From: a virus
Direction: 5' to 3' (one strand)
Length of the DNA stretch: 33,992 bases
IMG/VR virus record: IMGVR_UViG_3300010354_000299
Span: 1 to 33,992 of that record
The stretch's first letter is position 1; each line of letters begins with the position of its first letter. A program made the translations under genes and the position numbers. The notes beneath the pieces were generated by a model. That model made no database searches, was not told the origin of the DNA, and worked only from the letters and a program-made list of their open reading frames with translations. Positions 262 through 33,578 of the stretch are shown piece by piece.

Positions 262-2862
262 TTAGGCTGGGAGGTCGCTGTACGCCAACACACAGCGGCA
301 GTTGATGACTTCGGACGCCGACCCCATCGGGTCCAGCGGATACATTAGGCCGTTCGAGCGGAATGGCTGGTCAATGGGGATACGGCCTTCGCCCGCGCAC
401 CCCTCTGGGCCGTGCGTCGTGCGGGCATCGTTAAACGCCAGCCACTCCTTCGAGCGGTAGAGGTCGCCCATCTCCTTCGCTTGGTCCCACGACCCCTGCG
501 ACAAGGCACCCGCCGCTTCCGTCCGCGCAATCGCGTCCGACCGCGTGGTCACCTTGTCCTCGCCGTAGACCGCACGGGCCACAAGGCGCGAGGTTTCTGT
601 GACCGTCAGTCCGCCCCGCTCCGACGCCTCAATCACCGCCAACACTTCCTTCGCGGTCGTGTCGCCAATGAGCCGTGACAGACGCTCGGTGCGCTTGCGG
701 ATAGCCTCACGCACGGTCTGGACCGACCGCCCGGTCAGCCCCGCCTCGACCGTATCAGCGGCGAGGGACGCCCCAGCCCCAGCGACTTCCTTCGCGCCAA
801 AGGCGTAGGTCTTGGAGACGAGCGGTGTAAAGGACTCGCGCCAGTTCTCATCGAGGTCGCCGCCGGGCGTGTATGCCGCACGGACTCGCGCACGGGCCTC
901 CGCAAAGCTCTGGGCCGTCGAGATGGACTTGGTGACCTTCGGACGCTCGGCACGGAACAGCGCCTCTGCCGTCGCCTTGTAGGTCTGCTCGGTGCGGTCG
1001 AGTTCGGCGTTGGCCCGCTCCCAGATAGCCCGCTTCCGCATCATCTCATCATCGGGCTGGCTTCGGTCCTTGAGCGCGTCCTTCGCCTCGCGGATGACCT
1101 TCCGCATATGGTCCAGCCCTCGGTCACCGACCGCGAGCCACTTAATCTGCGCCACGACTCCGGCAAGCTGGAAGTCGCCACGATGCCGGGCGACCCACGC
1201 CTCACGAAGCCTAATGGCGTTCTCCTCGGCCTCGCCGTCAGGAACGCCACCACGCTTGGCGATTGGGGCCAGCTTGCGGAACTGCTCGTTGCCCTTGACG
1301 TTGCCGCCCTTCGACCAAATCTCGGGGAAGTTCTCTTGTAAGTCCTCGGCCTCACCGACCGGGAACAGGGCGTATTGCGAGTTGCGGAGCGTGACCTTCT
1401 TATCGTTGCCGTCCTCTGGGAAGTTGGTGATTGGCTCGGCGCGGGACTCGTCCTCCTCCTCGTCCTCGTCCCTCTCCTCCTCGTCGGCTTCCTCCTCCTC
1501 CATCTCCTCCGACTCGCCTTCTTCCTCCTCGTCCTCCTCGACCTCAACCTCGGTGGTCGGCTTGGACGGGGCCTCGGGTGAGGCTGGTTCGTTGTCGGTG
1601 GCGGGCGGCTCGTCCATGATGGTCGAGGGGTCGATGACCGCGACGGCGGCAGGGATGAGGTCGCGCCCCATCACCTTGAGCAGGCTGTCGGTCGGCTCGG
1701 GGAGCGGCGAGAGCTTGATGGCGCGGCGGCTCTCCTCCCACGTGCGAAGCCCGGCGTCGAACTCGGCCCGCACTCGGGTCGAGGTCTCGGTGTCGTTCTC
1801 AACCAAGTCGCGGAGGATGTCGTGGTCGTAGGTCACCCAGACATCGCCAAACTCGGGCGCGAGCCAATGGTTGAGTTCGTCCTCAAAGGCCGAGAACAGC
1901 GGCTCGATGGTGTGCTGGACAAGCCGCGCACGGGCTTCCGCATACTGGATGCCCGACAGCCCGCCGTCGCTCGACGCCGATGCAATACCAATCATCCGAG
2001 GGTCCACGCCGAACGCCGCGCAGATGTCCTCACGCGACACACGGCGGAGGTCGGGGAACTCAAGGTCGGAGAGCGTGAAGCCGAGCGGCTTGATGTCCTT
2101 GACCGCGCCGAAGAAGGCGGGGACACCACGCTTGCCTCGGTCCACCACGCGGGCCGTGTAGCGGTCCTGCATCGCCACCGCGTCCTCGGTCGTGGCCTCG
2201 TCCGACATAATCACCGCGAAGGTCGGGGTGCCGTCGTTGGTCACCACCTGCCGCACGTACTGCGTCGCCTCGTTGTCCGCCAAGATGGAACCGATAGCGG
2301 TCGCGCCACGCGGATAGCCGAACACATCGGCCTCAAACGGACGCCCCATCTCCAAGTCGCGGAAATGAAGCATATCCTCCGTCAGCACATTGACGATGAT
2401 GCCAGCCCAGTTCGCGTAGTCGTACCGGCGCGGGTCGCCCTCCGTATCAATCCAGACCTGCTGAAGCGACTCGGCGTTGACCGGACGCAGGGCCACAGGC
2501 GGGCGGTTTTCGCTCGGACGCTCCATGACGAAGAACGCGTTGCCGTAGCCCAAGAAGTCCACGGCGAACTTGGCGCGGAACTGGCGGGCCGTAAAGCGCG
2601 GGCCGGGGTAGTCGAGGAGCTTCTGGAGCGGGTTGTCATCGCCTACGCGAGACTCGTAGTTACCCTTTTCCTTTAGCACGACCAGCGGCACCGAGGCCAT
2701 AATATCCGCGACCACCCGGATGCAAGCGTGAACGACGGGATGGGCGTTAAAGCCCTGCACACGGATAGTCCGTCCATCGCGGCGGTACTCGCTCGGGTCC
2801 GCTGTACGGACCAACTGCATCTGCTGTATGCCGTTGGGAAAGTTCGGGTACGTCACCGGCAT
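262..2862 (-). CDS. Portal protein fused to Mu gpF-like head morphogenesis domain
   Basis: The 866-aa product (from ATG 2862) has three parts. Residues ~20-430 match the HK97/SPP1-type portal pattern, with VVHACIRVVADIMASVPL and later FGVDPRMIGIAS; portals form the dodecameric DNA entry ring. Residues ~437-474 are an almost pure Glu/Asp linker. After it, residues ~476-580 form a separate globular segment with KGGNVKGNEQFRKLAPIAKR, which I do not name. Residues ~680-866 resemble the Mu gpF head-morphogenesis family, including TRSDAIARTEAA and the C-terminal INCRCV motif. The start is uncertain: in-frame sequence upstream (LLLRVSDALRAL) looks like a portal N-terminus, and a TTG at 2946 could be used instead. 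The gene lies downstream of the large terminase gene, as usual. Confidence 0.9.
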   Translation of the reverse strand: MPVTYPNFPNGIQQMQLVRTADPSEYRRDGRTIRVQGFNAHPVVHACIRVVADIMASVPLVVLKEKGNYESRVGDDNPLQKLLDYPGPRFTARQFRAKFAVDFLGYGNAFFVMERPSENRPPVALRPVNAESLQQVWIDTEGDPRRYDYANWAGIIVNVLTEDMLHFRDLEMGRPFEADVFGYPRGATAIGSILADNEATQYVRQVVTNDGTPTFAVIMSDEATTEDAVAMQDRYTARVVDRGKRGVPAFFGAVKDIKPLGFTLSDLEFPDLRRVSREDICAAFGVDPRMIGIASASSDGGLSGIQYAEARARLVQHTIEPLFSAFEDELNHWLAPEFGDVWVTYDHDILRDLVENDTETSTRVRAEFDAGLRTWEESRRAIKLSPLPEPTDSLLKVMGRDLIPAAVAVIDPSTIMDEPPATDNEPASPEAPSKPTTEVEVEEDEEEEGESEEMEEEEADEEERDEDEEEDESRAEPITNFPEDGNDKKVTLRNSQYALFPVGEAEDLQENFPEIWSKGGNVKGNEQFRKLAPIAKRGGVPDGEAEENAIRLREAWVARHRGDFQLAGVVAQIKWLAVGDRGLDHMRKVIREAKDALKDRSQPDDEMMRKRAIWERANAELDRTEQTYKATAEALFRAERPKVTKSISTAQSFAEARARVRAAYTPGGDLDENWRESFTPLVSKTYAFGAKEVAGAGASLAADTVEAGLTGRSVQTVREAIRKRTERLSRLIGDTTAKEVLAVIEASERGGLTVTETSRLVARAVYGEDKVTTRSDAIARTEAAGALSQGSWDQAKEMGDLYRSKEWLAFNDARTTHGPEGCAGEGRIPIDQPFRSNGLMYPLDPMGSASEVINCRCVLAYSDLPA

Positions 2863-3014
2863 AATGGAGCGGGAGGACTCACCACTCCCTGACAAGGCGC
2901 GTAGCGCATCGCTCACGCGCAACAGTAAGGACTTGCGTTCGGACAAATGATGGCCCCGCGTTAGGAGTCTGCCACGCACAACACTAACGCGAAAGCAAGC
3001 AACCGCGCAACCCC

Positions 3015-4214
3015 TTACACGACAAACACCGACGGCCCCTTCTTGATAAGGGGCGCTAACGCATACCGCACGGCGTCCCATACGTGGTCATTGCCAGCCA
3101 CCAGATGCGGCAATACCTCGTCGGTTCGCGGGTCGGTCTTGTACCGCCAGAGCCGGGCTTCCTCGATGGCTCGCTTGCAACGTGGGTGGATTACGATGTC
3201 GGTGTAAGAGCGGAGGTGTTGGATACCGTCTTGTACGGACCCCGACCATTTGGGTGCGCCCTCGCACCGGAACCCACGCTTCTTCATCTCGGCTATGGTC
3301 TCTGGTCGCGCCGAGTCCGCCCGAATGACAAAGGCCCGCGCATCCGGTACGCTGTCAAAGGCGCGAACGAGGGCGTCTGTGTCTAACTGCACGCCGCCCG
3401 CTTCGGCGTCGAGGTACAGGCGATTGTCGTGCGTGTAGCATTTGATGAGGACGGTCGGGTCGTGCGAGAAGCCCCAGTCCGCGCCGAAGTACGGCCCTTG
3501 CCAGCCCGTCTCGGGCGTAAAGTCCATCACCCGCCACTTGCCTGCCAACACCTGCGCGTCCGACCGCGCCCACGGCTTCCCGCCCCATACGTGCGCGTGA
3601 GCCTCTGGGTCGGCCTTGAGCAGAGCGTCCGCCTCCTGCTTCAGCACGGCTGGGAACCACGGGTTATCCGTGTAGGAAACCTTGCGGACGATGGACCGCT
3701 CTGGCGACTTGACAATAAACCGCTGGTACGTGCTGTCCGATTCCATCGCCGGGTTAAACGTCACCCAGATTTCCGAATTGTCCTTGCGGATGGTCGGGAT
3801 GAGGGTGCGCCAGCTTGAGTCGGATACCGCCTCGGCCTCCTCAACCCAGCAGATGTCAATGCCTTCCGTGGACTTAATCTGCGCGATGTCGCGGCGTAAG
3901 CCCTTGAACAAGAACTCTGTGCCATTGGCTCCGAGGATAGCCGACTCCTGCACCGTGTAGAAGTTGTCAAGCTCAAGCCGCGTCACTTGGTCCGCCAAGA
4001 CCCGATGCACCGAGTCGCGGATGCTGGCTTGGTACTCACGCGCACAGAGGATGCGGAGGGGCTGGGAGAGGCCGTGGACAAGCAATGCGCGGGCATATTG
4101 CCACGACTTTGCCGAGCCTCGACCGCCAAAGGCCACGCGGTACCGGACGCCCCCGAGGGTCGGCGTGTAGAGGAACCCGAACGCTTTGGGGGTGGGAACG
4201 TGGAGGGCTGTCAC
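3015..4214 (-). CDS. terL: Terminase large subunit
   Basis: This 399-aa ATPase-nuclease packages phage DNA through the portal. The Walker A is GGRGSAKS (residues 30-37) and the Walker B is IDICWVEEAE (119-128). The RNase H-like nuclease domain has GADWGFSHDP (D246), RADSARPE (D300) and NDHVWDA (D376/D380), the spacing of the Terminase_3/PBSX-type family. Length is normal for the family. The start is a GTG at 4214 whose bases overlap the TGA of the preceding 53-aa gene (GTGA junction), so it is probably translationally coupled. The small-subunit candidate lies just upstream and the portal downstream. Confidence 0.95.
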   Translation of the reverse strand: MTALHVPTPKAFGFLYTPTLGGVRYRVAFGGRGSAKSWQYARALLVHGLSQPLRILCAREYQASIRDSVHRVLADQVTRLELDNFYTVQESAILGANGTEFLFKGLRRDIAQIKSTEGIDICWVEEAEAVSDSSWRTLIPTIRKDNSEIWVTFNPAMESDSTYQRFIVKSPERSIVRKVSYTDNPWFPAVLKQEADALLKADPEAHAHVWGGKPWARSDAQVLAGKWRVMDFTPETGWQGPYFGADWGFSHDPTVLIKCYTHDNRLYLDAEAGGVQLDTDALVRAFDSVPDARAFVIRADSARPETIAEMKKRGFRCEGAPKWSGSVQDGIQHLRSYTDIVIHPRCKRAIEEARLWRYKTDPRTDEVLPHLVAGNDHVWDAVRYALAPLIKKGPSVFVV

Positions 4215-6464: not shown

Positions 6465-6480
6465 GTTCTCCGTGTCGGGG
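6465..6480 (-). promoter_or_regulatory. Leader box with ribosome site, copy 1
   Basis: The minus strand reads CCCCGACACGGAGAAC and ends 4 bases before ATG 6460; GGAG is the Shine-Dalgarno core. The same 16 bases occur in inverted orientation at 10659-10674, inside the predicted small RNA. This decides the start codon of the 64-aa gene and marks it as a possible antisense target. Confidence 0.6.
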
Positions 6481-6717: not shown

Positions 6718-6731
6718 TTCTCCGGTCGGGG
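6718..6731 (-). promoter_or_regulatory. Leader box with ribosome site, copy 2
   Basis: The minus strand reads CCCCGACCGGAGAA. It is identical to the 6465-6480 box apart from one missing A, and it is also preceded by a TA dinucleotide. It provides the ribosome site for the gene starting at 6712. The missing base breaks the long complementarity to the predicted small RNA into two shorter blocks. Confidence 0.5.
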
Positions 6732-6760: not shown

Positions 6761-6788
6761 AAACTAAAGCCCCCGCACCGTTTGTCAA
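6761..6788 (-). promoter_or_regulatory. Predicted sigma-70-type promoter
   Basis: On the minus strand a perfect TTGACA (6788-6783) is followed after 16 bases by TAGTTT (6766-6761). The -35 is consensus but the -10 is weak, so activity may need an activator. CTATTGACA is also found at the 10583 promoter. It lies in the 93-bp gap before the 6712 gene and would drive the leftward small-gene block. Confidence 0.45.
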
Positions 6789-9374: not shown

Positions 9375-10019
9375 TCAGAACGGGAGCGAATCGTCCATAT
9401 CGTTGTCATCCGGCGGCGGAATCTTGCTGAAGTCAGGCGGAGCCAGCCGCTTGCCCGAGACCGGTGGCATCTTGACCTCCGGTGCCTTCTCGACAGGCTT
9501 CGCGTCAAGGCCGTCAGGCTGTATGCCTTTGTCCTTCCAGCTAATCCAGATGGTCGCCGCCGCAGATTGAATCGCCGCCGCATCCAGCGTGATGTTGCGG
9601 TTGTCGCACACCACCTGAAAGTGTCCAGCGACCGTATCCCAGAGCATAAGATACTGCGCCAGAATCGCATCTCGACGCGGCTGGACGCCACCGGGGGTAG
9701 CTGGTACCGCCTGTGGAACCACGCGAGCCGTCGGCTTGGGCTGGGCGGGTTCGGTCCCGGCGTAGCTAATGCCCCAGTATGGCTTGGCTCCTTTCTTCGG
9801 GTTCGGGTCGCGGCTGAACGTCAGGTTCATCCCCACCACGCTCGACTCGTCCAACCCGAGCCGGTCAAGTTGACGGTCAGCCGACTGCTTGGGAAGGTAG
9901 AGCGTGTCGGAGCCGTCCGAGAATAGCACCTGCTCGCCGTAGTTCCCGGTGACGGTTTTGCACTCGGTCACGGTCATCGTGTGCGAGTCGCCTTCGTTCT
10001 GCAACTTGAGAATTGCCAT
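9375..10019 (-). CDS. Putative single-stranded DNA-binding protein
   Basis: In the 214-aa protein, residues 1-95 look like a beta-rich OB-type domain (MAILKLQNEGDSHTMTVTEC, SDTLYLPKQSADRQLDRLG, PKKGAKPYWGI). Next come a Pro/Ala linker, a helical segment (ILAQYLMLWDTVAGHFQVV), a Pro-rich linker and an acidic tip ending in DDNDMDDSLPF. Such an acidic tail ending in a hydrophobic-Pro-Phe tip is the hallmark by which SSB proteins recruit partners. The alternative is another small OB-fold protein. ATG 10019 has AGGAGAGG upstream. Confidence 0.6.
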   Translation of the reverse strand: MAILKLQNEGDSHTMTVTECKTVTGNYGEQVLFSDGSDTLYLPKQSADRQLDRLGLDESSVVGMNLTFSRDPNPKKGAKPYWGISYAGTEPAQPKPTARVVPQAVPATPGGVQPRRDAILAQYLMLWDTVAGHFQVVCDNRNITLDAAAIQSAAATIWISWKDKGIQPDGLDAKPVEKAPEVKMPPVSGKRLAPPDFSKIPPPDDNDMDDSLPF

Positions 10020-10295: not shown

Positions 10296-10530
10296 CGTAG
10301 CCTCGGGCGTAGCGGTCATCCTCGTAGTGCGAGGCTTTGGCTTCCTGCGCCCGGTCCCAAAGTTCGTCAAAGAGTTCTTCTTCTTGCTTCTGCGTGAGGT
10401 CGTGGTCGCACTCGGCGTCCTCGATGGTGACCTCGTAGTCATGCGACAAACCGACTGACGGTTCAGGCGGCGAGTAGTAGACGCTCACCTGCATTGGCAA
10501 ACCGCACGTGGGGCAACCGACCGTTTCCAT
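10285..10530 (-). CDS. Hypothetical zinc-finger-like protein
   Basis: The 81-aa protein begins METVGCPTCGLPMQVSVYYS, then EVTIEDAECDHDLTQKQEEE and a helical acidic C-terminus. CPTC (C6, C9) plus the later C-D-H suggest a zinc ribbon; the acidic helix is typical of short phage proteins of unknown role. ATG 10530 is chosen over 10557 because of CACACGGAGA 6 bases before it. It is the first gene behind the 10559-10588 promoter, and its ribosome site carries 9 bases complementary to the loop of the predicted small RNA. Confidence 0.65.
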   Translation of the reverse strand: METVGCPTCGLPMQVSVYYSPPEPSVGLSHDYEVTIEDAECDHDLTQKQEEELFDELWDRAQEAKASHYEDDRYARGYDDL

Positions 10531-10534
10531 AGGG

Positions 10535-10543
10535 TCTCCGTGT
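10535..10543 (-). promoter_or_regulatory. Leader box with ribosome site, partial copy 3
   Basis: The minus strand reads ACACGGAGA, the core of the leader box shared with 6465-6480. It supplies GGAGA 6 bases before ATG 10530 and is fully complementary to 9 of the 10 loop bases of the predicted small RNA. Confidence 0.45.
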
Positions 10544-10558
10544 GAGGGGGGTGCCAAT

Positions 10559-10588
10559 AGAGTAATGCCAAAGGCGGGAATCTGTCAA
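10559..10588 (-). promoter_or_regulatory. Predicted promoter for the 10530-leftward operon
   Basis: On the minus strand a perfect TTGACA (10588-10583) is followed after 18 bases by TACTCT (10564-10559). CTATTGACA is shared with the promoter at 6783. It lies directly behind a terminator, so it restarts transcription for the block of small DNA-metabolism genes. Confidence 0.55.
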
Positions 10589-10596
10589 TAGGCGCC

Positions 10597-10634
10597 AAAA
10601 ACAAACCCGCCAGCCGGTCAGGGCGGACGGGTTT
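10597..10634 (-). terminator. Intrinsic terminator
   Basis: On the minus strand AAACCCG (10634-10628) pairs with CGGGTTT (10609-10603), extended by a partly paired GC-rich interior. It is followed by TGTTTTT (10603-10597). Stem plus U-tract indicate Rho-independent termination of leftward transcripts. The plus strand has no U-tract, so it is one-directional. Confidence 0.75.
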
Positions 10635-10685
10635 GGCAAGTCCCGAATCTTCAGTATCCCCCGACACGGAGAACGGGGAGCTTGC
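10597..10685 (-). ncRNA. Predicted small RNA with an anti-Shine-Dalgarno loop
   Basis: A promoter-like element (10692-10720) would start a transcript near 10685 that ends at the terminator at 10597, about 90 nt. The 5' part forms a hairpin: UCCCCG (10679-10674) pairs with CGGGGG (10663-10658, one G-U pair), with the 10-base loop UUCUCCGUGU. Loop plus 3' arm (GUUCUCCGUGUCGGGG) are the exact complement of the leader box of the gene at 6460; nine loop bases are complementary to the ribosome site at 10530. The sequence and complementarity are seen directly. That it is transcribed and acts in trans is inference. No known RNA family is recognised. Confidence 0.45.
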
Positions 10686-10691
10686 GTTTGA

Positions 10692-10720
10692 TATATAGCG
10701 AAATGCTACAGTTTGAGCAA
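10692..10720 (-). promoter_or_regulatory. Predicted promoter of the small RNA
   Basis: The minus strand carries TTGCTC (10720-10715), a 17-base spacer, and TATATA (10697-10692). Two short dyads overlap it: CAGTT-5-AACTG across the -35 and TAGC-5-GCTA ahead of the -10. These could be protein-binding sites. Neither hexamer is perfect, so the call is tentative. Confidence 0.4.
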
Positions 10721-11022
10721 CTGGATATGCCGGGGCCATTCCCGGTCGTAAGGCGGGTAAGGCAGGAAGTGGGCGGAAGGCCAACGGTGGGGCGGTCTGC
10801 GTGTCTACCCCGGCACAGGTAGAACCCCTTCGACCGGAAACCTGCGGGGCCGTTGTCACCCCGTGTAGCTCCCCATCGACTTCCCAAAACGACCGACCAC
10901 GTTGCAGGCTGGCAGAGCGTGGATTTGTTGTGATTGGGTGCGACAGGCACGGTCAGGATTGTTTGTCAGCCGTCCGAACGACTGACTAGCGGGAGACCGA
11001 GAGAAGGCCCGCTGTCCCAGCG
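10721..11022. other. Gene-free region with RNA-like hairpins
   Basis: No frame here has a ribosome site with protein-like content. I see two hairpins just after the 11023 gene: AGCGGG/CCCGCT (10988-10993 with 11008-11013, 14-base loop), and GTCAGCCG/CGACTGAC (10965-10972 with 10979-10986, one G-U pair, 6-base loop). There are shorter GC stems farther left. Neither is followed by a U-tract. It could be a structured 3' UTR or a non-coding RNA. I see no tRNA. Confidence 0.4.
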
Positions 11023-15162: not shown

Positions 15163-16278
15163 TCAACTATTCCAACCGGTTGATGGAAATGCGCCAGCCT
15201 TCGTTCGTTCCGCGATGACGCGGAATGCCACATCGTAGGCCCGCCCGACCGAGCGAAGTCCGTACAGCCGTCTTGCTCTAGCGCGAACGTCCTTTCGGTT
15301 CAAGCCCGCCACCGCGTCGATGGCATCCAAGTATTGCCGCACGGTCTGACAGCGAAACCCCGTCCGGTCCTGCGCGACCGTCTCCGTAAACGCCCCGAAG
15401 CTCGACGTAATGGCTGGGGTGCCGCAGAGGGCCGCTTCCACCACCACACCGCAGAACGGCTCGATGTAGTGAGATGGTGCAATGATTGCTCTAGCATTAC
15501 CCAAGTACGCCGCCCGCTCTGCGTTGAGCGGCCCGACATACTCAACGTTGGTAGGAATGTCCCCGAATTGGGTAAGGTCGCCCTGCCCCGCCAGCACGAA
15601 CGGCACATCAGGCCGGAGCCGCGCCAGTTCCAGAATGAGCGGCACGCCCTTGCCTTCGGTCAGCCGACCCAAGAACACGACCGCCTCGCCGCCTGGTCCC
15701 TCGGGCCACTCGTCGCAGTCATACGAGTTTGGCACCACAAACTCTAGCCGTGAGCTACTGCTGTGGACGCCAGCCCGACCCTCTTTTGCCATACACCCGT
15801 GCCTGACGGCCTCGGACTCGTAGATGCGCCACGGCAGGAGCGTGTCGAAGTACCCGATGCCCGACTCCACCGCCGACGCCCCGGCCTTGAGGTTCGGCAG
15901 GTCGCGGATGGCTGGCGCGTGGGCGTGACCGAAGGGAAGCAGGATGCAGTCGCCCGGCTTGACTCGTGCCTTCAGTTCGTCGCGGGCGTAGAGGTTCCAT
16001 TGCCGATACACCTCGGAGTCGGCCTGCGCGTCATTGCCGTAGAACGCCGCCGGGTCGTGGTTGTACGGATGCCCGAGGAGCCGCTGGTGTTCCTCCTGCC
16101 CCATTAGCACCACATCCTCGGACGCTCCAGAGTCCGACCCCTCGACGCCGTAGTGGATGACATCGTAGCCGAGCGGGACCATCATCCGCGAGAACTTGTA
16201 GACCTTCTGCGTAAAGGCACAATGCGCGAAATCTTTCGTGGTGACCGTGTGCGGGATGCCAAGCAAGTGCAGGCGCAT
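15163..16278 (-). CDS. GT4-like glycosyltransferase, copy B
   Basis: The 371-aa protein begins MRLHLLGIPHTVTTKDFAHC. The C-terminal Rossmann domain has FLGRLTEGKG (203-211), VLAGQGD and IEPFCGVVVEAALCGTPAIT. This E-x7-E motif (E273...E281) binds the nucleotide of the sugar donor in GT-B/GT4 retaining enzymes. It is a tandem paralogue of the next gene upstream, sharing the MRLHLLGxPHT start, HYGxEGSxSGAxEDV and the GT4 motifs. ATG 16278 overlaps the upstream stop by one base (TGATG). Donor and acceptor are unknown; modification of phage fibres or host surface glycans is inference. Confidence 0.88.
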   Translation of the reverse strand: MRLHLLGIPHTVTTKDFAHCAFTQKVYKFSRMMVPLGYDVIHYGVEGSDSGASEDVVLMGQEEHQRLLGHPYNHDPAAFYGNDAQADSEVYRQWNLYARDELKARVKPGDCILLPFGHAHAPAIRDLPNLKAGASAVESGIGYFDTLLPWRIYESEAVRHGCMAKEGRAGVHSSSSRLEFVVPNSYDCDEWPEGPGGEAVVFLGRLTEGKGVPLILELARLRPDVPFVLAGQGDLTQFGDIPTNVEYVGPLNAERAAYLGNARAIIAPSHYIEPFCGVVVEAALCGTPAITSSFGAFTETVAQDRTGFRCQTVRQYLDAIDAVAGLNRKDVRARARRLYGLRSVGRAYDVAFRVIAERTKAGAFPSTGWNS

Positions 16279-17369
16279 CAGATTCTCGCGGGATAAGTGT
16301 ACCAGTCGCGGCCCATCGCCAAGCCGTGCAACATCTCCATCGCGTCCGCGTACAGCGGCGCCACGGCGGGCAGGCTAAACCGTCGCCGCGCCTCGATGCC
16401 GATTGCCGTGCGATTCATCAATGGCGCCCGACGGATGGCCTCAACCCAGTCATTTAGCACGCGGCAATGCCACCCCGTCACGCCGTGCGTGACGGTTTCG
16501 AGGAAGCACCCATAGCTCGGCGTAATCACCGGCGTCCCGCAGAGAATGGCCTCAAGCGCCGACGCCCCACCCGGCTCGGCATACTGGCTCGGGTAGAGAC
16601 AGGCCACCGCGTTGCCAAGATAGGCGGCTCGCTCCGCGCCGTGTATGGGTTCCTTGTATTCGATATTTGGCGCCACCAAGAACGGCGTCGGGTTGCCCTG
16701 CCCGCACAACACGAAGCGCATCTCGGGCATCCGCTTCGCAATCTGCACGATGAGATGACAACCCTTCGTCTCGGAGATACGCCCGAGGAACGCGCAATAG
16801 GCCGGGGTGCTAGGCTTGGTGGTAATGGGCCACTCGTCGGCCTCGAAGTAGGGAGGAATCACCCACTCGTAGGCCGTCACGCCACGCCCAAACTTGGCTT
16901 GGTGATAGTGCATCCACATCGCCGTCTCGAAAATACGGAACGGCAAGTAGCTCTGCGGATAGCCGATGCCAAGCTCGCAGTCTACGCCGTCGTGACTGCC
17001 AATAGAACCTTGATGCCCTGTGCCGAGCGAATGTAGCACGACATCGCCCTTTCGCACGTGCTTGGCAAGCTGTTCCCGAAGCCGCGCATTGAAGGTGCGA
17101 TACAGCACCGAGTCCGTGCGGGCATCCGCCACGTGCATCCGCTGTTTGTCCTCTAGCCGATGCCCGAGCAGGTCGTAGAACTCGTCCTCGGTCATTAGCG
17201 CCACATCTTCCGTGGCACCGCTCTGCGACCCTTCGATGCCATAATGCACGACCTCATAGTCGAGGCCACGCATCATCGGCCCGAAGTAGCGAACTTTGTT
17301 CGTGAAAGCGTCGTGTGAAAAGCGAGGATGCGTGATGGTGTGAGGGACACCAAGCAGATGCAGTCGCAC
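16278..17369 (-). CDS. GT4-like glycosyltransferase, copy A
   Basis: The 363-aa protein starts MRLHLLGVPHTITHPRFSHD (GTG 17369, no good ribosome site). It has FLGRISETKG, FVLCGQGNPTPF and YAEPGGASALEAILCGTPV, the GT-B donor-site motifs. Similarity to copy B runs end to end, so the pair arose by duplication within the phage or an ancestor. It follows the tail-fibre-associated genes by 2 bp, which links it to virion or receptor sugars by position. The N-terminal acceptor halves of the two copies differ more than the C-terminal halves, so different acceptors are plausible. Confidence 0.88.
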   Translation of the reverse strand: MRLHLLGVPHTITHPRFSHDAFTNKVRYFGPMMRGLDYEVVHYGIEGSQSGATEDVALMTEDEFYDLLGHRLEDKQRMHVADARTDSVLYRTFNARLREQLAKHVRKGDVVLHSLGTGHQGSIGSHDGVDCELGIGYPQSYLPFRIFETAMWMHYHQAKFGRGVTAYEWVIPPYFEADEWPITTKPSTPAYCAFLGRISETKGCHLIVQIAKRMPEMRFVLCGQGNPTPFLVAPNIEYKEPIHGAERAAYLGNAVACLYPSQYAEPGGASALEAILCGTPVITPSYGCFLETVTHGVTGWHCRVLNDWVEAIRRAPLMNRTAIGIEARRRFSLPAVAPLYADAMEMLHGLAMGRDWYTYPARI

Positions 17370-17884: not shown

Positions 17885-20800
17885 TTACGCCACCTGCGCC
17901 CAGAGTTGCCCCGTCGTACCCGTTCCAGAGGGCGTGTTGGTCGAAATAGTCGCGTTGACAGGACCTGTCGGACCAGTCGGTCCCGTCACACCTGTAACGC
18001 CGGTTGGTCCTGTCGCGCCAGTCGGACCAACTGGACCGGTCGCGCCGATGTTGCCCTGTGCGCCGGTTGGCCCTGTCGGACCAGTCTCTCCGGTCGGACC
18101 CGCAGGCCCCGGCAATCCGGGGTCGCCTTGTGGTCCAGTCGGACCCGTCGCTCCAGTCAATCCATTCGGACCAGTTGGACCAGAGGGTCCAGTCTCACCG
18201 CTTGGTCCAGTCGGGCCAGTTTCGCCGGTTGCTCCAATCAAACCAGTCGCACCAGTCGCGCCGACCTCGGCAAGCAAGTCCCAATAGCTCGACGGAACAG
18301 CCGGAGGCTGATTTGAGTGCATCTGAATGCATATCCACGACGAGCCGAGATACGACACGGCTTCATCGACGAGGTACGTCTGCCCGCTGTTCCACGCGCC
18401 CTGCCAATCCAAGCCACGCGGACCCGTGGCGCCGGTTGCTCCTGTCGGTCCAGTTGGTCCGGTTGGTCCGGTAACACCAGTCACACCGGTTGGTCCGGTC
18501 GGTCCAGTTTCTCCCGTCGGGCCTGTTGCCCCGGTCGGACCCGTTGGCCCAGCAGGACCAGTCGGTCCCGTAGCGCCAGCACTCGCATTCGGTCCCACGA
18601 ACGTCTGCCCAAACGTCGGCGCAACAAATGGAGAATCCGCTTCGTCGGTGTTCTGCTGGACGAGATAGGTGTCCTGCGGCAACTCCGTTTCTACGCTAAT
18701 CTCATATGTCCAGACGTCTGACGCCGTGCTATCCCACGTAGCCTTCCAGCCGTCAACCGTTTTGGTGCCAGCCGTCGCAACGTTCGTCGCTGTGGTGCCG
18801 CTCTGATTCTTAACCGACGCGGCAACGACCTGCGTGGTAAAGGACTGCGCGAGAATATCATCGCCGTCCTCGTCGAGCGTGTTGTTGCCACGCTGGAAGA
18901 AGAACCGCCACCAGACCTCGTACTTACCAGAGCCGCTATTGTAGCCCTGCTTCTGCACCTTGATGATGGCGTTATTGACGCCGTAGTTCTGCGGATACTC
19001 CGTCGTGCCTTCACGGATGTAGCCGATGTTGCCATCATTGTCCGCGCCATAGATACGCCACTCAATTTGATACACCAGCGTATCGTCAATCGAGTCGGCC
19101 TTCATATAGTACGGCGCCGTCGGTGAGGCGGCGTAGTATTCGTTATTCCAGAACGTTTCTGTCCACGCGCTATAGGTACTGCCGGTGCGCGTGCGATACC
19201 GATACTGGAAGAAAAAGGCGCGGTTCTGCACATCTTCACGCAAGATTTGCACCACCAGCCCATTAAACAGCGGCGTCGGCGGCGTCCAATACTCCCACGA
19301 ACTCTGTGGAGTCAATACCGCTTCAGTCCCAGAGGGCCGCTCAATGGTGGCAGGGATGCCAGTCGCCACCGCCATCAGACCAGAGTAGGTCGCTCCCGAC
19401 AAGGTGCCATAACGCGGGATGACTTGAGAGTCTGCCTTGCCTGCCGTGCGATGCTTGATGCGATACCAATACTTTGTGCCGTTTCTCGGGAGCGCGTCGA
19501 TGTAAATCGTAGTGTTCGCCGGGACCACCGCAATTTCTGCGTAGGTGTCTGGACGGTCAGGCCCGGTCAGGTTATTGGCCCGCTCGATGACCGTCTGGTC
19601 CGCGCCCTGCGCCGTCCATAGTCCAAGCGCAACACCCTGCGGTAAGGTGGCATCGTTGACGCCATCGATGATGGCAAAGCCAGCAGGTCGGTCAGCTACG
19701 CCGACTGCCGAGTTGGTAGTCTGGAACGTTGTCGCGGTCGCCATAGTCCCGCGCACCTGCGAGATGGCATCAAAGAACGCCACGCCCACCACGTAGTCCG
19801 TCGAAGCCGTCAGGCCGAGCAGGGTCGTGGTCGTGGTCCCCGCAGGCAAGACCGCCCAGCGATACGTCTGCCAGTTTGCCGGAGCCGTCGTATCAGGATA
19901 GACGTAGACCTCAATCGTGTCCTGTGTATTGCCACCAAGATTCCACGACACGACCGCTGACTTGTTCGTGATGCTTCCGACCGTTACCGCCGTTGGCGCA
20001 TCCCACGTGGTCAGGCTTACCGTCTGCCAGCCGGTCCACGCACTCGGGAACAGGCCCGGTTGCTCCGACCGCGCCCGCACATAGACCGTCGACCCCGGCA
20101 CCACCGGCGTCAGCGGCACGGCCCCAGTCGGGATTTGACCCGGCTCGTACCGCGCAAACGTCACGCCATTGACGCCCGAGGCAGGCGCCGAGGCGCCCGT
20201 CGCATATTCAATGGTGACCGCGATGTCATCGTTCGTGTTCAGCGCGGCGGCGTTGGTAATCGTGAACTGCGCCACCCGGCGAGGGTCTTTCGTGCTTGCC
20301 GAGGCCGTGATGGTCGGGGTCTGGGCTGGCTGAACGTACACGCCCGCATCGACCAGCTTGAACGCCACCGACTCGGGCCGCTCGTCCCGCCGAACGACCT
20401 GCGCCACGCGAGCGCCGACCGAGGACTCACCAATGCGGTAGTTCTTGTTCGGATAGAAGCCAGCGTCGAGATAGACTAACTCACCCACCTGCGCGGCGGC
20501 AGGAGCCGTACCTCGGATAACCTCGACCTCCATCGACGGCGCCCCGCGTCCAAAGCGGTCAAAGCCCTCACGCGCCACCGCTAACGCGAACAACTGCGGG
20601 TCAGGCACGAACGAGTCCTTCTCGTGAATCATGCCGGGGATGTCATACGTCACCATCCGCGTTGAGAACGTGGTGGTGTCGCCGGTCACGATTTCATACG
20701 GCACCTCGGTCTCCACCAGCATATCGGCTGGTGGCTGTTCCGTGGTCTGCTGGTTCTGCACCCACTTGGTAAACTTCTTTTGCTTGATGCTGTAACCGGT

Positions 20801-22273
20801 GACCGCCGTAGCCTCATCCAAGTCGAAGATGGGCGGCGGGCTGTCCCCGACTAGCTCATTATCCGTAATGGTCAGCGTCGGCGCGGCAGTCCCAAGCTCT
20901 CGCGTTAGGAAGAACTCAATCTCGCCCGAAGCGTTCGTGCGAGCGGCAAAGCCAAACGGCCCAAACAGCGCAGACTCCAAGAACTCCGCCATATTCTGCG
21001 GCTCGGTAATCCGGCAGGCCAGATACGTGTCAGGCCCGATGCCGTCCTTGACCGCATCTGCCGAGGCGCTATTAACCGTCAGGCCGATGAGTTGATACAG
21101 CTTGGTGGCTACGTCAACCGGATGCTCGTCAAAGTAGAGTGGCGACTGCTCGGTGGTCAGCGCACTCACGCCCCGCACTCGCACCGGCGTCCCCGGCGTC
21201 ATCGCAGGCGTGATGTTGCCAAAGCTATCGACCGACGAGCCATCCAACTGCACGAACAGCCGACGCTCGCCACCGACCTGCGTGAACTGCGTTGAGTAGT
21301 TCAGGTTGCTCTGCGGCGTGAACAGGCCACGGATGGTGCCTTCCCACGTATTGCCCGCGCTATCCGCCAGCAACGCCCTGACGCCGGGATAGGCATAGAC
21401 CGGCGAGCGGTCGTTTAGCCCTGCCCAATTCGTTCCGACCGGCACCGCGTCTGGCGTGTCGTAGGACACGAACGGCGCGATATTGCTATAGAGCTTCTCA
21501 AAGTCCGTCTGCGCCAAGACCGTCTTACGCTCGTAGTTCGGCTGGAGATACGCCGCTACGAAGTCTAGCGAGACGAGCGCCGAGTACCTACCATCGCCCG
21601 ACAGGAAGTTGGTCGCCGTGTCGAGGATGCTGAACTCCCAGCCCCCCGAGTCTGGCGTGAGGTCCGACCCTTCGGACGCGCCGAAGCCGCCGATAACGGG
21701 CCCGCCAAACAAGCACCCGCGCTTCGGGAAGGCCGTCCGTTCCGCCGCCCGGTCCCACGCGAAGATACGTTGAGTCTGCTCGACTCGCCGCGTGTTGCTG
21801 ATGGTAAAGGCGTACCGGATAGCATCAATCTGCCGCACGCTCGTCAGATAGCCCGCCTGCCAGACATCCCACGACGAGCCGTTGTTGGAGGACATCTCCA
21901 AGAACGCCTTGCGCGAGAGCAGGTGCGGACGCCCGAACTCGGCGTTGTTGGCTTCTAGCTCAATCGGGTCGCCGTTTTCCAGCAGAATCTTGTCGCCATT
22001 TTCGAGGAGCAGATAGCCCTCGACGCCATCGTAAATCTGGCTGGTAACAAGTCGCAGGGTGCCGGTGCTATCGACCCCCGTAATTACATCGATGACCTCA
22101 ACCACATAGGCGCCAGTACGAACCGCCCCTGTTAGCAGGTCTACTTCTTGCCCATCGCCATTCGGGATACCGGTGATATAGGGATTGGTGCCGCCTCGAA
22201 CCGAGGTGACAACGAGCGTGTCCGCGTTATCGGCGGCGTTACGGATGCGAAGGCGGTAGGCTTGTGTCGCCAT
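17885..22273 (-). CDS. Large tail-tip / fibre protein with Fn3 and collagen-like domains
   Basis: The 1462-aa protein has a small beta domain (1-85), then [20 protein letters not shown] (~88-107), and a long tail-tip-like region (~110-740, including [30 protein letters not shown] and [12 protein letters not shown]). Fn3-like modules lie at ~755-853 and ~860-960, with further beta modules to ~1225. Two collagen-like Gly-x-y blocks (~1228-1283, ~1343-1438) flank a small [20 protein letters not shown] module that resembles a chitin-binding-type (CBM5/12) fold. It probably forms the central tip and host-contacting fibre. The length, position after the tape measure and domain order support this. 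The start overlaps the upstream stop (TGATG). Confidence 0.85.
17960..18245 (-). repeat. Collagen-like Gly-x-y repeat block 2
   Basis: The coding strand repeats 9-base units encoding Gly-Pro-Thr, Gly-Ala-Thr, Gly-Glu-Thr and Gly-Val-Thr triplets, roughly residues 1343-1438 of the tail-tip protein. Such stretches form trimeric collagen-like rods in phage fibres. The DNA is internally repetitive and therefore prone to length change by recombination. Confidence 0.85.
18421..18590 (-). repeat. Collagen-like Gly-x-y repeat block 1
   Basis: This is a second run of Gly-x-Thr/Pro triplets ([19 protein letters not shown] and similar), roughly residues 1228-1283. It is separated from block 2 by a 55-60-residue non-collagen module, so the fibre is rod-knob-rod. 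Confidence 0.85.
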
Positions 22274-31400: not shown

Positions 31401-32759
31401 TTACGCAGAGGCCGTGTTGTCCAGCACAACGAACGGGCTATGCTCGTCAACCTTGTTGCCCGACGAGTCAATCGCGTAGGCATAGGTCGAGGTCGGGAGC
31501 GGGATGCCCCCGGCGCGAGCAACGAACCGGTACGTGGTGATGTCGTTCACGAACTTGTAGTGAATCGAGGACTCGACCGTGAGGGCCTGACGAAGCCCCA
31601 TCGCGTAAAAGTCGCCGTTCACCAGCGCCACATCGCCCTCGGTCCCGAGCGTCGGGAGGAGGTCCGTGACAATGACCGGAAGCCCGAGGAGGGTCATCTG
31701 GGGCTTGTCGCGGAGGTTCGGAATCCACGTGACCATCGTGTTGTTCGTGGTCTGCATCGCAAACAACTGGGCCAGCACGCGGCGAGAAATCATCCACACC
31801 GAGTTCGGGCCGTGCGTGTGACGCTCGTACATCTGGAAGGCATCACGCGCCTTGAACTCGTTCGCGGTCTGACGCACGACCTTGAGGAGCGCCGAGTTGT
31901 TGGTGTTGAACGCGCCGAGCGGCTGGCTCGACCCGGTGCCGTCGATGGTGATGTCTTCGTTAATCTTGTTGATGACCTGCCCACCGACAGCGGCAGTCAC
32001 CTCGGCGGGAAGCTCGCCGGTGAAGTCATCGCCAAGCAGTTCGTCACCGAACTCCGTCACAGCGGCGTACTTATACATCGTGAGGAGACGCTGACCGAAG
32101 TTCGGGTCACGCTCCGGCTTGGTCGCGCCTTCGCCAACGATGGTGACGTTCGCAATCTTACCCGCCATTGGGCGGTTAAGGGTGGACGTACCCTCGTCCT
32201 GCAAGAGATACGGGATACGGAGCGAACGGCCCGGCACGTTGTAGCGGCGGGCGTACTGAAAGAGACCCGGCTGGGCATTGCTCACCGAGAAAATCTCGGG
32301 AACCTGCGAGAGCGGGAGGAGGAACTCACCACCGTTGGTCGAGCCGGTGATGGTGCGGGTCATCATATCGACCGTGCGAAGCGCCTCGGCCTCCTTCGCA
32401 TTCGCCGGCCCCTTCGCCACGGCGCGGACATACGAGCCGATGGAGGGGAACGCCTTGACGAGAACCGAGCGGACCTTCTCGCTCGCGTCCTTCATCCCAG
32501 CAAACTCGGTGCGGTCAGCACCGCTGACGTCCATCCGCACAAGGCCCTCGTCGCCACCCTGACGGGCGACCTCGGCATCAGCGGTGAACTCGGCGGCAGA
32601 CTGCGCCCGCATCTCAAGCGCACGGATGTCAGCGGTGCGCTTCTCAACTTCCTCCGCCGTGAAGCTGGCGGTCGGGTCCATAAGCTCGCTACGGAGCTTG
32701 TGCGCCTGCTCGCGGAACTCGTTCGCGGCGCGGTTCTTGGAAACAAGTGGGGCCTTCAT
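31401..32759 (-). CDS. Major capsid protein, HK97 fold
   Basis: The 452-aa protein has an N-terminal helical delta-type region (1-~70, REQAHKLRSELMDPTASFTA, KRTADIRALEMRAQSAAEF). The HK97-type core begins near GGEFLLPLSQVPEIFSVSNA and includes RIPYLLQDEGTSTLNRPMAG, TEFGDELLGDDFTGELPAEV (P-domain spine) and NGDFYAMGLRQALTVESS. The delta region is probably removed by the upstream protease; the cleavage site is not obvious. The gene has its own ribosome site (GAGAG) and is followed by a strong hairpin. It forms the icosahedral shell. Confidence 0.93.
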   Translation of the reverse strand: MKAPLVSKNRAANEFREQAHKLRSELMDPTASFTAEEVEKRTADIRALEMRAQSAAEFTADAEVARQGGDEGLVRMDVSGADRTEFAGMKDASEKVRSVLVKAFPSIGSYVRAVAKGPANAKEAEALRTVDMMTRTITGSTNGGEFLLPLSQVPEIFSVSNAQPGLFQYARRYNVPGRSLRIPYLLQDEGTSTLNRPMAGKIANVTIVGEGATKPERDPNFGQRLLTMYKYAAVTEFGDELLGDDFTGELPAEVTAAVGGQVINKINEDITIDGTGSSQPLGAFNTNNSALLKVVRQTANEFKARDAFQMYERHTHGPNSVWMISRRVLAQLFAMQTTNNTMVTWIPNLRDKPQMTLLGLPVIVTDLLPTLGTEGDVALVNGDFYAMGLRQALTVESSIHYKFVNDITTYRFVARAGGIPLPTSTYAYAIDSSGNKVDEHSPFVVLDNTASA

Positions 32760-32774
32760 TGTCGTGTTCTCTCG

Positions 32775-33578
32775 TTACTTGGGTAGGACGAACGATGACC
32801 GCACCGCCTTGATACGGTCCTCCATCTTGGCATACCGTGCCGTGCTGTCCGTCGAGGTGGGCGTATCCAATACCACAGGGGCATCAGACGAAGCCGTCTC
32901 GGTAGCGACAGGCGTGGGCTTGTATGTGTCCAGCAATGCCATCCGTGCTTCGTCAGACAGCGCATCTAACGCGGCACGAGCGGCAAGTAGCAGGAGTTCA
33001 TCGTCCGTGCGCTCGGGCGACTCCTCCTCCTCCAGTTGAGCCACCGGGTCGGTGGTCTCCATATCCTCATTACGGGCCGAGGCAATCTCTGCCCCCGGCA
33101 CGGCAGGCATCGGCGTGATGCTCACCTCGCGAAGTTCAATCTCGGTGAACCGCTCGACCGGCTTGCCATTGACGGTCACCATCTCCGAGGCTCGCGGGAT
33201 GAACCCGATGCTGAACCCCGTCGAGGCGCCGCTTGCCAAGACTGCCTTGACGTACTCCAACGCGGCCCGACCGTCGGCGGTGTCAAAGATGTCGGCGGTC
33301 ATCACGACCGCATCGCCCATCTCCCGCATCTCGGTGACCACGCCCACGTGCGCCTTGCTGGTCCGTTCGTGGTCCATCAGGAGCGGAACCTTGCGAGCCG
33401 AGACCTTGTTGTTGATGGTCCGCTTGGCAGACTCGCGGGCGAACATCGTCTGATAGCTGTCCACCACCTCATAGGTCAGCGCCACGCCCGACACGCGCCC
33501 TGCAATACCGGGCGGGAGGTCGGACTCGGCACGGATTTGTGGGGCGGCTTCGGTCAGGTGGTAGCGCGTGGACTTCAT
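32775..33578 (-). CDS. Prohead protease (HK97 / S78 family)
   Basis: In the 267-aa protein the catalytic His is H70 (LLMDHERTSKAHVGVVTEMR) and the nucleophile is most likely S123 (STGFSIGFIPRA); E147/E149 of FTEIELREVSI lie close to the usual acidic partner. The order DHE...GxV...SIGF...EVSITPMPA is standard. It cleaves the capsid delta domain during prohead maturation. The C-terminal ~90 residues are acidic (QLEEEESPERTDDE) and end in a basic helix, possibly a scaffold-like tail. The gene precedes the capsid gene by 15 bp. Confidence 0.93.
   Translation of the reverse strand: MKSTRYHLTEAAPQIRAESDLPPGIAGRVSGVALTYEVVDSYQTMFARESAKRTINNKVSARKVPLLMDHERTSKAHVGVVTEMREMGDAVVMTADIFDTADGRAALEYVKAVLASGASTGFSIGFIPRASEMVTVNGKPVERFTEIELREVSITPMPAVPGAEIASARNEDMETTDPVAQLEEEESPERTDDELLLLAARAALDALSDEARMALLDTYKPTPVATETASSDAPVVLDTPTSTDSTARYAKMEDRIKAVRSSFVLPK

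Follow-up and report, generated by a model that had tools for sequence, protein, structure and literature searches.

The phage record analysed here, an IMG/VR sequence of 33,992 bases that is referred to over its whole length as the window, quite probably carries a trans-acting antisense small RNA (sRNA) that controls a small regulon within the same genome, repressing its genes by pairing over their Shine-Dalgarno (SD) sequences. The sRNA unit, its conservation in related phages, its covarying stems, and its conserved complementarity to leader boxes placed at a fixed distance from start codons are established at the sequence level; transcription, direct pairing in vivo, the sign of the regulation (repression) and its timing are what we infer. 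A small RNA antisense to the phage's own ribosome sites, as proposed in the preliminary description, is the interpretation that the comparison of relatives supports best; the regulon would be wider than first proposed, with a repeated box that recurs before different accessory genes from one member of the clade to another.

Structure and conservation of the predicted small RNA gene

Every gene that was followed in the window lies on the minus strand. Positions 262-4214 hold the terminase and portal genes, and positions 31401-33578 hold head genes; the sRNA unit is located within the non-coding interval 10531-11022, between the structural gene block on one side and the early block on the other (Table 1). 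As judged from its layout, the minus-strand segment 10597-10720 is a stand-alone small RNA gene, which would be transcribed from its own promoter; a P1 stem (GCAAG...CUUGC) encloses the antisense core and is followed by the terminator. The promoter pair and the terminator with its U-tract had both been noticed in the preliminary description, and both were recovered, the promoter elements with a 17-nt spacer on the minus strand and the terminator as a hairpin (10635-10602) followed by U5. Terminator-like hairpins are rare in these genomes, with three on the minus strand of the window by one test, and the sRNA unit therefore stands out. Likewise, the 16-base complementarity described earlier proved exact, as GTTCTCCGTGTCGGGG within the RNA is the complement of the leader box before ATG 6460, and the shorter 9-base match to the ribosome site at 10530 was located at ACACGGAGA (10535-10543). 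Within the antisense core, GGGG (10659-10662) forms an exposed tetraloop, and CUCC constitutes the anti-SD part.

Table 1. Coordinates of the predicted small RNA unit, its leader boxes and its candidate target genes in the window.
Feature	Position	Strand	Basis or remark
-35 element TTGCTC, sRNA promoter	10715-10720	-	TTGC kept in 7 of 7 homologs compared
-10 element TATATA, sRNA promoter	10692-10697	-	TATnnn in the same register in 7 of 7 homologs
Predicted small RNA, ~89 nt	10597-10685	-	Covariance model matches and compensatory pair changes
Antisense core GUUCUCCGUGUCGGGG	10659-10674	-	Exact complement of box 6465-6480
Rho-independent terminator	10597-10635	-	Stem 10635-10602 plus U5; minimum free energy fold
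Separate promoter of gene 10530, TTGACA-18-TACTCT	10559-10588	-	Kept in L002-L005; downstream of the sRNA terminator
Leader box CCCCGACACGGAGAAC, target 1	6465-6480	-	16-nt complement of the sRNA; GGAG 7 nt before ATG
Target gene 1, 64 aa	6266-6460	-	No known domain
Variant box CCCCGACCGGAG, target 2	6720-6731	-	Second-best duplex in the window, -30.0 kcal/mol
Target gene 2, 74 aa	6488-6712	-	Open reading frame; first gene of the accessory operon
Probable accessory-operon promoter, TTGACA-16-TAGTTT	6761-6788	-	Read from the sequence
Partial box CCCCCCTCACACGGAGA, target 3	10535-10551	-	Duplex -26.9 kcal/mol
Target gene 3, 81 aa	10285-10530	-	Open reading frame; first gene of the early operon

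Thirteen related contigs were gathered via a 214-aa neighbour protein (9375-10019); homologous RNA units were located by BLAST in most of these relatives, and then by a covariance model, which detected the RNA in 10 of 14 related records, in one copy each, with E-values of 1e-14 to 1e-25. The complete unit, comprising the promoter TTGCnn-17-TATnnn, the ~89-nt RNA, the covarying stems, and the terminator, occurs in nine further IMG/VR phage contigs; the comparative RNA evidence comes from six distinct sequences only, represented by the window (identical to L002), L003, L004, L005, L006-8, and L009. The 14-nt core TCCGTGTCGGGGGA is invariant across these six RNAs; L003 shows a single core change, from CUCC to UUCC, and pairing is retained through G-U. 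A check for stem covariation in related phage genomes had been suggested, and the pairs of both P1 and the terminator indeed change on both sides: GCAAG/CUUGC in the P1 stem of the window is GCACCC/GGGUGC in L003, and three terminator pairs (alignment columns 81-83 with 92-94) are altered in both partners. The covariation score was attained by none of 500 shuffles, and 95% of the cells in the stem alignment were paired versus at most 43% once the partners were slid.

Outside this clade, searches for further members gave no convincing candidates. The pattern of core plus terminator start returned these clade contigs only when applied to all of IMG/VR, and yielded 27 matches in bacterial genomes, none of which was backed by the covariance model; a terminator pattern independent of the core produced no convincing additional member. 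No DNA match to the unit was found among INPHARED phages, and the 214-aa neighbour protein was not found in the genome contigs searched. A weak covariance model match in L056/G019 (E 0.06), where the core is absent, looks like chance.

Folding of the RNA

The GGGG loop is predicted to be unpaired with a probability of ~0.99 in the window RNA and of 0.89-1.00 across all six RNAs. In the full-length molecule the 5' arm pairs with the downstream CGGGACUUGC, and the core folds as GUGUC-GGGG-GAUAC; the loop displayed is thus this tetraloop (10659-10662) and not the 10-nt loop UUCUCCGUGU of the 5' hairpin that had been described initially. That hairpin is geometrically possible and is the minimum free energy fold for the first ~30-38 nt, with similar early-transcript alternatives in the other five RNAs, but its pairing probability in the full-length RNA is at most 0.01, and forcing it as the final fold costs 5.4 kcal/mol; in these models it may be, at most, a co-transcriptional intermediate. 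It is likely, from the modelled fold, that the exposed GGGG loop makes the first contact with CCCC of the leader; exact and variant boxes alike have a conserved CCCC at the 5' end, which fits such a loop-first contact.

Leader boxes and candidate target genes

The invariant sRNA core UCCGUGUCGGGGGA is complementary to the leader box ACCCCGACACGGAGA. The box was searched as CCCCGACACGGAG in the 14 related records and then placed relative to genes, with further contigs added for the leader count; the 15 columns of ACCCCGACACGGAGA are common to 15 distinct leaders, which belong to different gene families; two of the columns show one exception each, and the flanks are near random, with little information upstream. 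The GGAG of the box lies 7 nt before the ATG, or 9 nt in one family; the boxes often follow the stop codon of the preceding gene by 5-9 nt, and always occur in one orientation, over the SD sequence. The exact box with its spacing was found in 11 of the 2.9 million viral contigs that make up all of IMG/VR, all of them belonging to this clade. Complementarity between the RNA and leaders in related phages, on which the initial proposal depended, holds throughout: at least one perfect box precedes an ATG in every sRNA-bearing contig that is long enough to include the target region. Variants of the box (CCCCGACCGGAG, CCCCGACACAGGAG, and CCCCYCACACGGAGA) stand in front of additional genes, and the variant CCCCGGCACGGAG of L074 remains pairable by G-U. 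Core and box are both nearly invariant, with the consequence that true RNA-target co-variation is absent.

Within the window, genes 6460, 6712, and 10530 have the three best-pairing leaders among 54 SD-bearing ATG leaders; this ranking places the two targets proposed earlier, 6460 and 10530, among the top three and points to gene 6712 as a further candidate target. The 16-nt complement scores -36.1 kcal/mol, a value that was reached by none of 2000 shuffled seeds keeping the anti-SD word CUCC; the score of the third-best target was reached once in 2000 such seeds. When unfolding is included, net binding ranges from -2.6 to -15.2 kcal/mol for boxed leaders versus -2.0 to +2.4 kcal/mol for other genes, with weak values of about -3 kcal/mol for some variant boxes. 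The variant box of gene 6712 recurs in L005, L003, and L074; in the partial box of gene 10530, CCCCYCACACGGAGA is kept in L006 and L009 despite replacement of the remaining leader. The target proteins are small, and most are without a Pfam or PHROG family match; in the window, neither Pfam nor PHROG matches were found for target gene 1, no Pfam match was found for target gene 2, and target gene 3 has a weak PHROG match only. As a separate observation, a hairpin CGGGCCGCacggcGCGGCCC immediately precedes the boxes in several boxed-gene leaders (L003, L005, L009, and L074) and also occurs before the other type of box, the one carried by sister phages (L011, position 14072); perhaps it marks a cassette junction.

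Proposed mechanism

In the proposed mechanism, a sigma70-type promoter and a terminator, both belonging to the unit itself, would set the start and the end of the ~89-nt RNA. The GGGG tetraloop of the mature RNA would meet CCCC at the 5' end of the leader box; pairing would then extend through GACACGGAG, opening the short GUGUC/GAUAC stem, and the resulting duplex would cover the SD sequence GGAG and block binding of the 30S subunit. The first gene of the early operon would be repressed through a weak box, and the genes of the swappable accessory operon through strong boxes; going by the distribution of boxes, any gene that bears the tag is probably silenced at the level of translation by the RNA. 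A single RNA complementary to one recurring tag, which precedes several unrelated small genes whose identity varies from phage to phage, would be an RNA counterpart of the T4 RegA repressor, in a compact and testable design of one loop and one box; it would offer a route to accessory genes whose expression a phage has to hold down, and suggests that whole RNA regulons can be revealed without culture by comparing metagenomic phages. A broader idea, to which we give somewhat less than even credence, is that of an RNA address system, where a ribosome-site tag of 13-15 nt puts newly acquired accessory genes under one antisense RNA, sister lineages use another tag, and the combination of tag and RNA determines the genes, and perhaps also the phages, that are silenced.

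Alternative explanations

The unit combines several attributes of a trans-acting antisense sRNA: its own promoter, at the sequence level, since the register TTGCnn, 17 nt, TATnnn, 6 nt, RNA start is shared by 7 of 7 homologs with widely divergent spacer letters; an intrinsic terminator; and a conserved seed complementary to the ribosome sites of unlinked genes. An unlikely alternative is that the box is simply a strong, lineage-specific ribosome site that travels with accessory cassettes, and that its complementarity to the RNA is incidental to some other role, for example on host mRNAs. Sister phages lend this explanation some substance: the RNA-less L130-L134, L067, L010, and L011 have a repeated leader box of their own, CTCYCATCGGAG, which differs from that of the window and stands in front of one to four genes; among these are the opening gene of the early operon and, for L011, the ortholog of gene 6460. 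L131 has an 85% identical terminase and retains the neighbouring structured region, and the sRNA is absent. An antisense partner of CTCYCATCGGAG was not found by pattern searches or by terminator-anchored pairing in these contigs, several of which are fragments; a repeated box alone is therefore no proof of RNA control, and the pointer to such control in the clade of the window is a conserved RNA gene with the complement of the box. A plain ribosome site leaves unexplained why an independently conserved, structured RNA gene contains the exact complement of the whole box, including CCCCGACA outside the SD sequence, and why RNA and box co-occur here, with neither turning up elsewhere in 2.9 million contigs.

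The remaining explanations are considerably less probable. A sponge effect, in which the RNA would itself be acted upon by the boxes or by surplus boxed mRNA, is improbable, as is a main role of the RNA in excluding superinfecting phages with the same box; box type and RNA do go together by lineage, and a part in heteroimmunity is described for the c4 RNA of P1/P7 (PMC12197685), but a scan of proteins brought neither an integrase nor an immunity repressor to notice, and the RNA would also act on its own genome. It is similarly hard to regard the unit as a 5' leader, attenuator or riboswitch of gene 10530, even though it lies on the same strand about 70 nt upstream: a conserved separate promoter stands between terminator and gene and is kept even where the spacers of homologs are unrelated (in L006 and L009 the sequence in between is completely different), so that the sRNA is not the leader of this gene, and distant boxes account for the conservation of the core. 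Least probable of all is that the 13-16 bp motif, which occurs both at the starts of genes and within the intergenic region, serves a phage repressor as its DNA operator. Either orientation would work for such a site, as is seen; the boxes, however, are not at promoters but lie inside operons, 5-9 nt after stop codons, in one orientation, 7-9 nt from the ATG and over the SD sequence, and the sRNA copy of the motif lies downstream of a promoter and within a covarying RNA fold. Several boxes directly follow an upstream stop codon, which leaves no room for an operator at a promoter; in the window, the reading frame upstream of box 6465-6480 ends 7 nt before the box, again without room for a promoter. 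A small protein gene was also rejected, since the frame that starts with GTG lacks an SD sequence and diverges between homologs downstream of the RNA, and since the changes in the stems are compensatory.

Comparison with known phage regulators

Known phage antisense RNAs mostly have one or few targets, and the c4 RNA is processed from the same operon as its target. The c4 RNA of P1/P7 is a phage antisense RNA that carries its complementary parts in loops and blocks a ribosome binding site (PMC12197685); the window sRNA resembles it in this loop-placed antisense block, and differs in having several unlinked targets instead of the single ant operon, in its own promoter and terminator, and in the absence of an Rfam match. 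Searches against Rfam, with the C4 antisense RNA included, gave no gathering-level match and two chance-level matches in the window, L003, L006, and L009. The 68/69-nt sar RNA of P22 pairs with its mRNA and stops translation initiation (PMC12197685), but has ant as a single target, compared to several for the window sRNA. VpdS of VP882 and PreS of lambda are stand-alone, trans-acting phage sRNAs, and VpdS affects phage and host mRNAs; both are Hfq-dependent, with emphasis on host targets, and the review that covers them describes no repeated, dedicated leader box (PMC12197685). The T4 RegA repressor provides the precedent for one phage regulator acting on many phage mRNAs, at whose initiation regions it competes with ribosomes (PMC3014915); RegA is a protein with loose sequence preference, whereas the window has a proposed base-pairing RNA with a strict box of 13-15 nt. 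By analogy, the window sRNA would be c4- or sar-like at any one ribosome site and RegA-like in breadth; it belongs to no described RNA family.

Neighbouring and other features

Directly upstream of the sRNA, the minus-strand interval 10735-10930 forms a second conserved, structured non-coding region, for which RNAalifold gives 43 pairs, 11 of them altered on both sides; an Rfam match was not found for this region, which is also present in L131, a phage without the sRNA. Between the structured region and the sRNA promoter, L003, L005, and L006 carry an inverted repeat (GTTGCG..GTCGGTA..TACCGAC..CAAC) with conserved arms and a variable loop, which is absent from the window; it is a possible operator or further RNA. 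Elsewhere on the minus strand, an array of 9-nt periodic repeats at 17945-18583, inside the open reading frame 17885-22273, is possibly a collagen-like Gly-X-Y stretch within a probable large tail-fibre protein, and two adjacent genes at 15163-17369 belong to the same glycosyltransferase family, phrog_3408.
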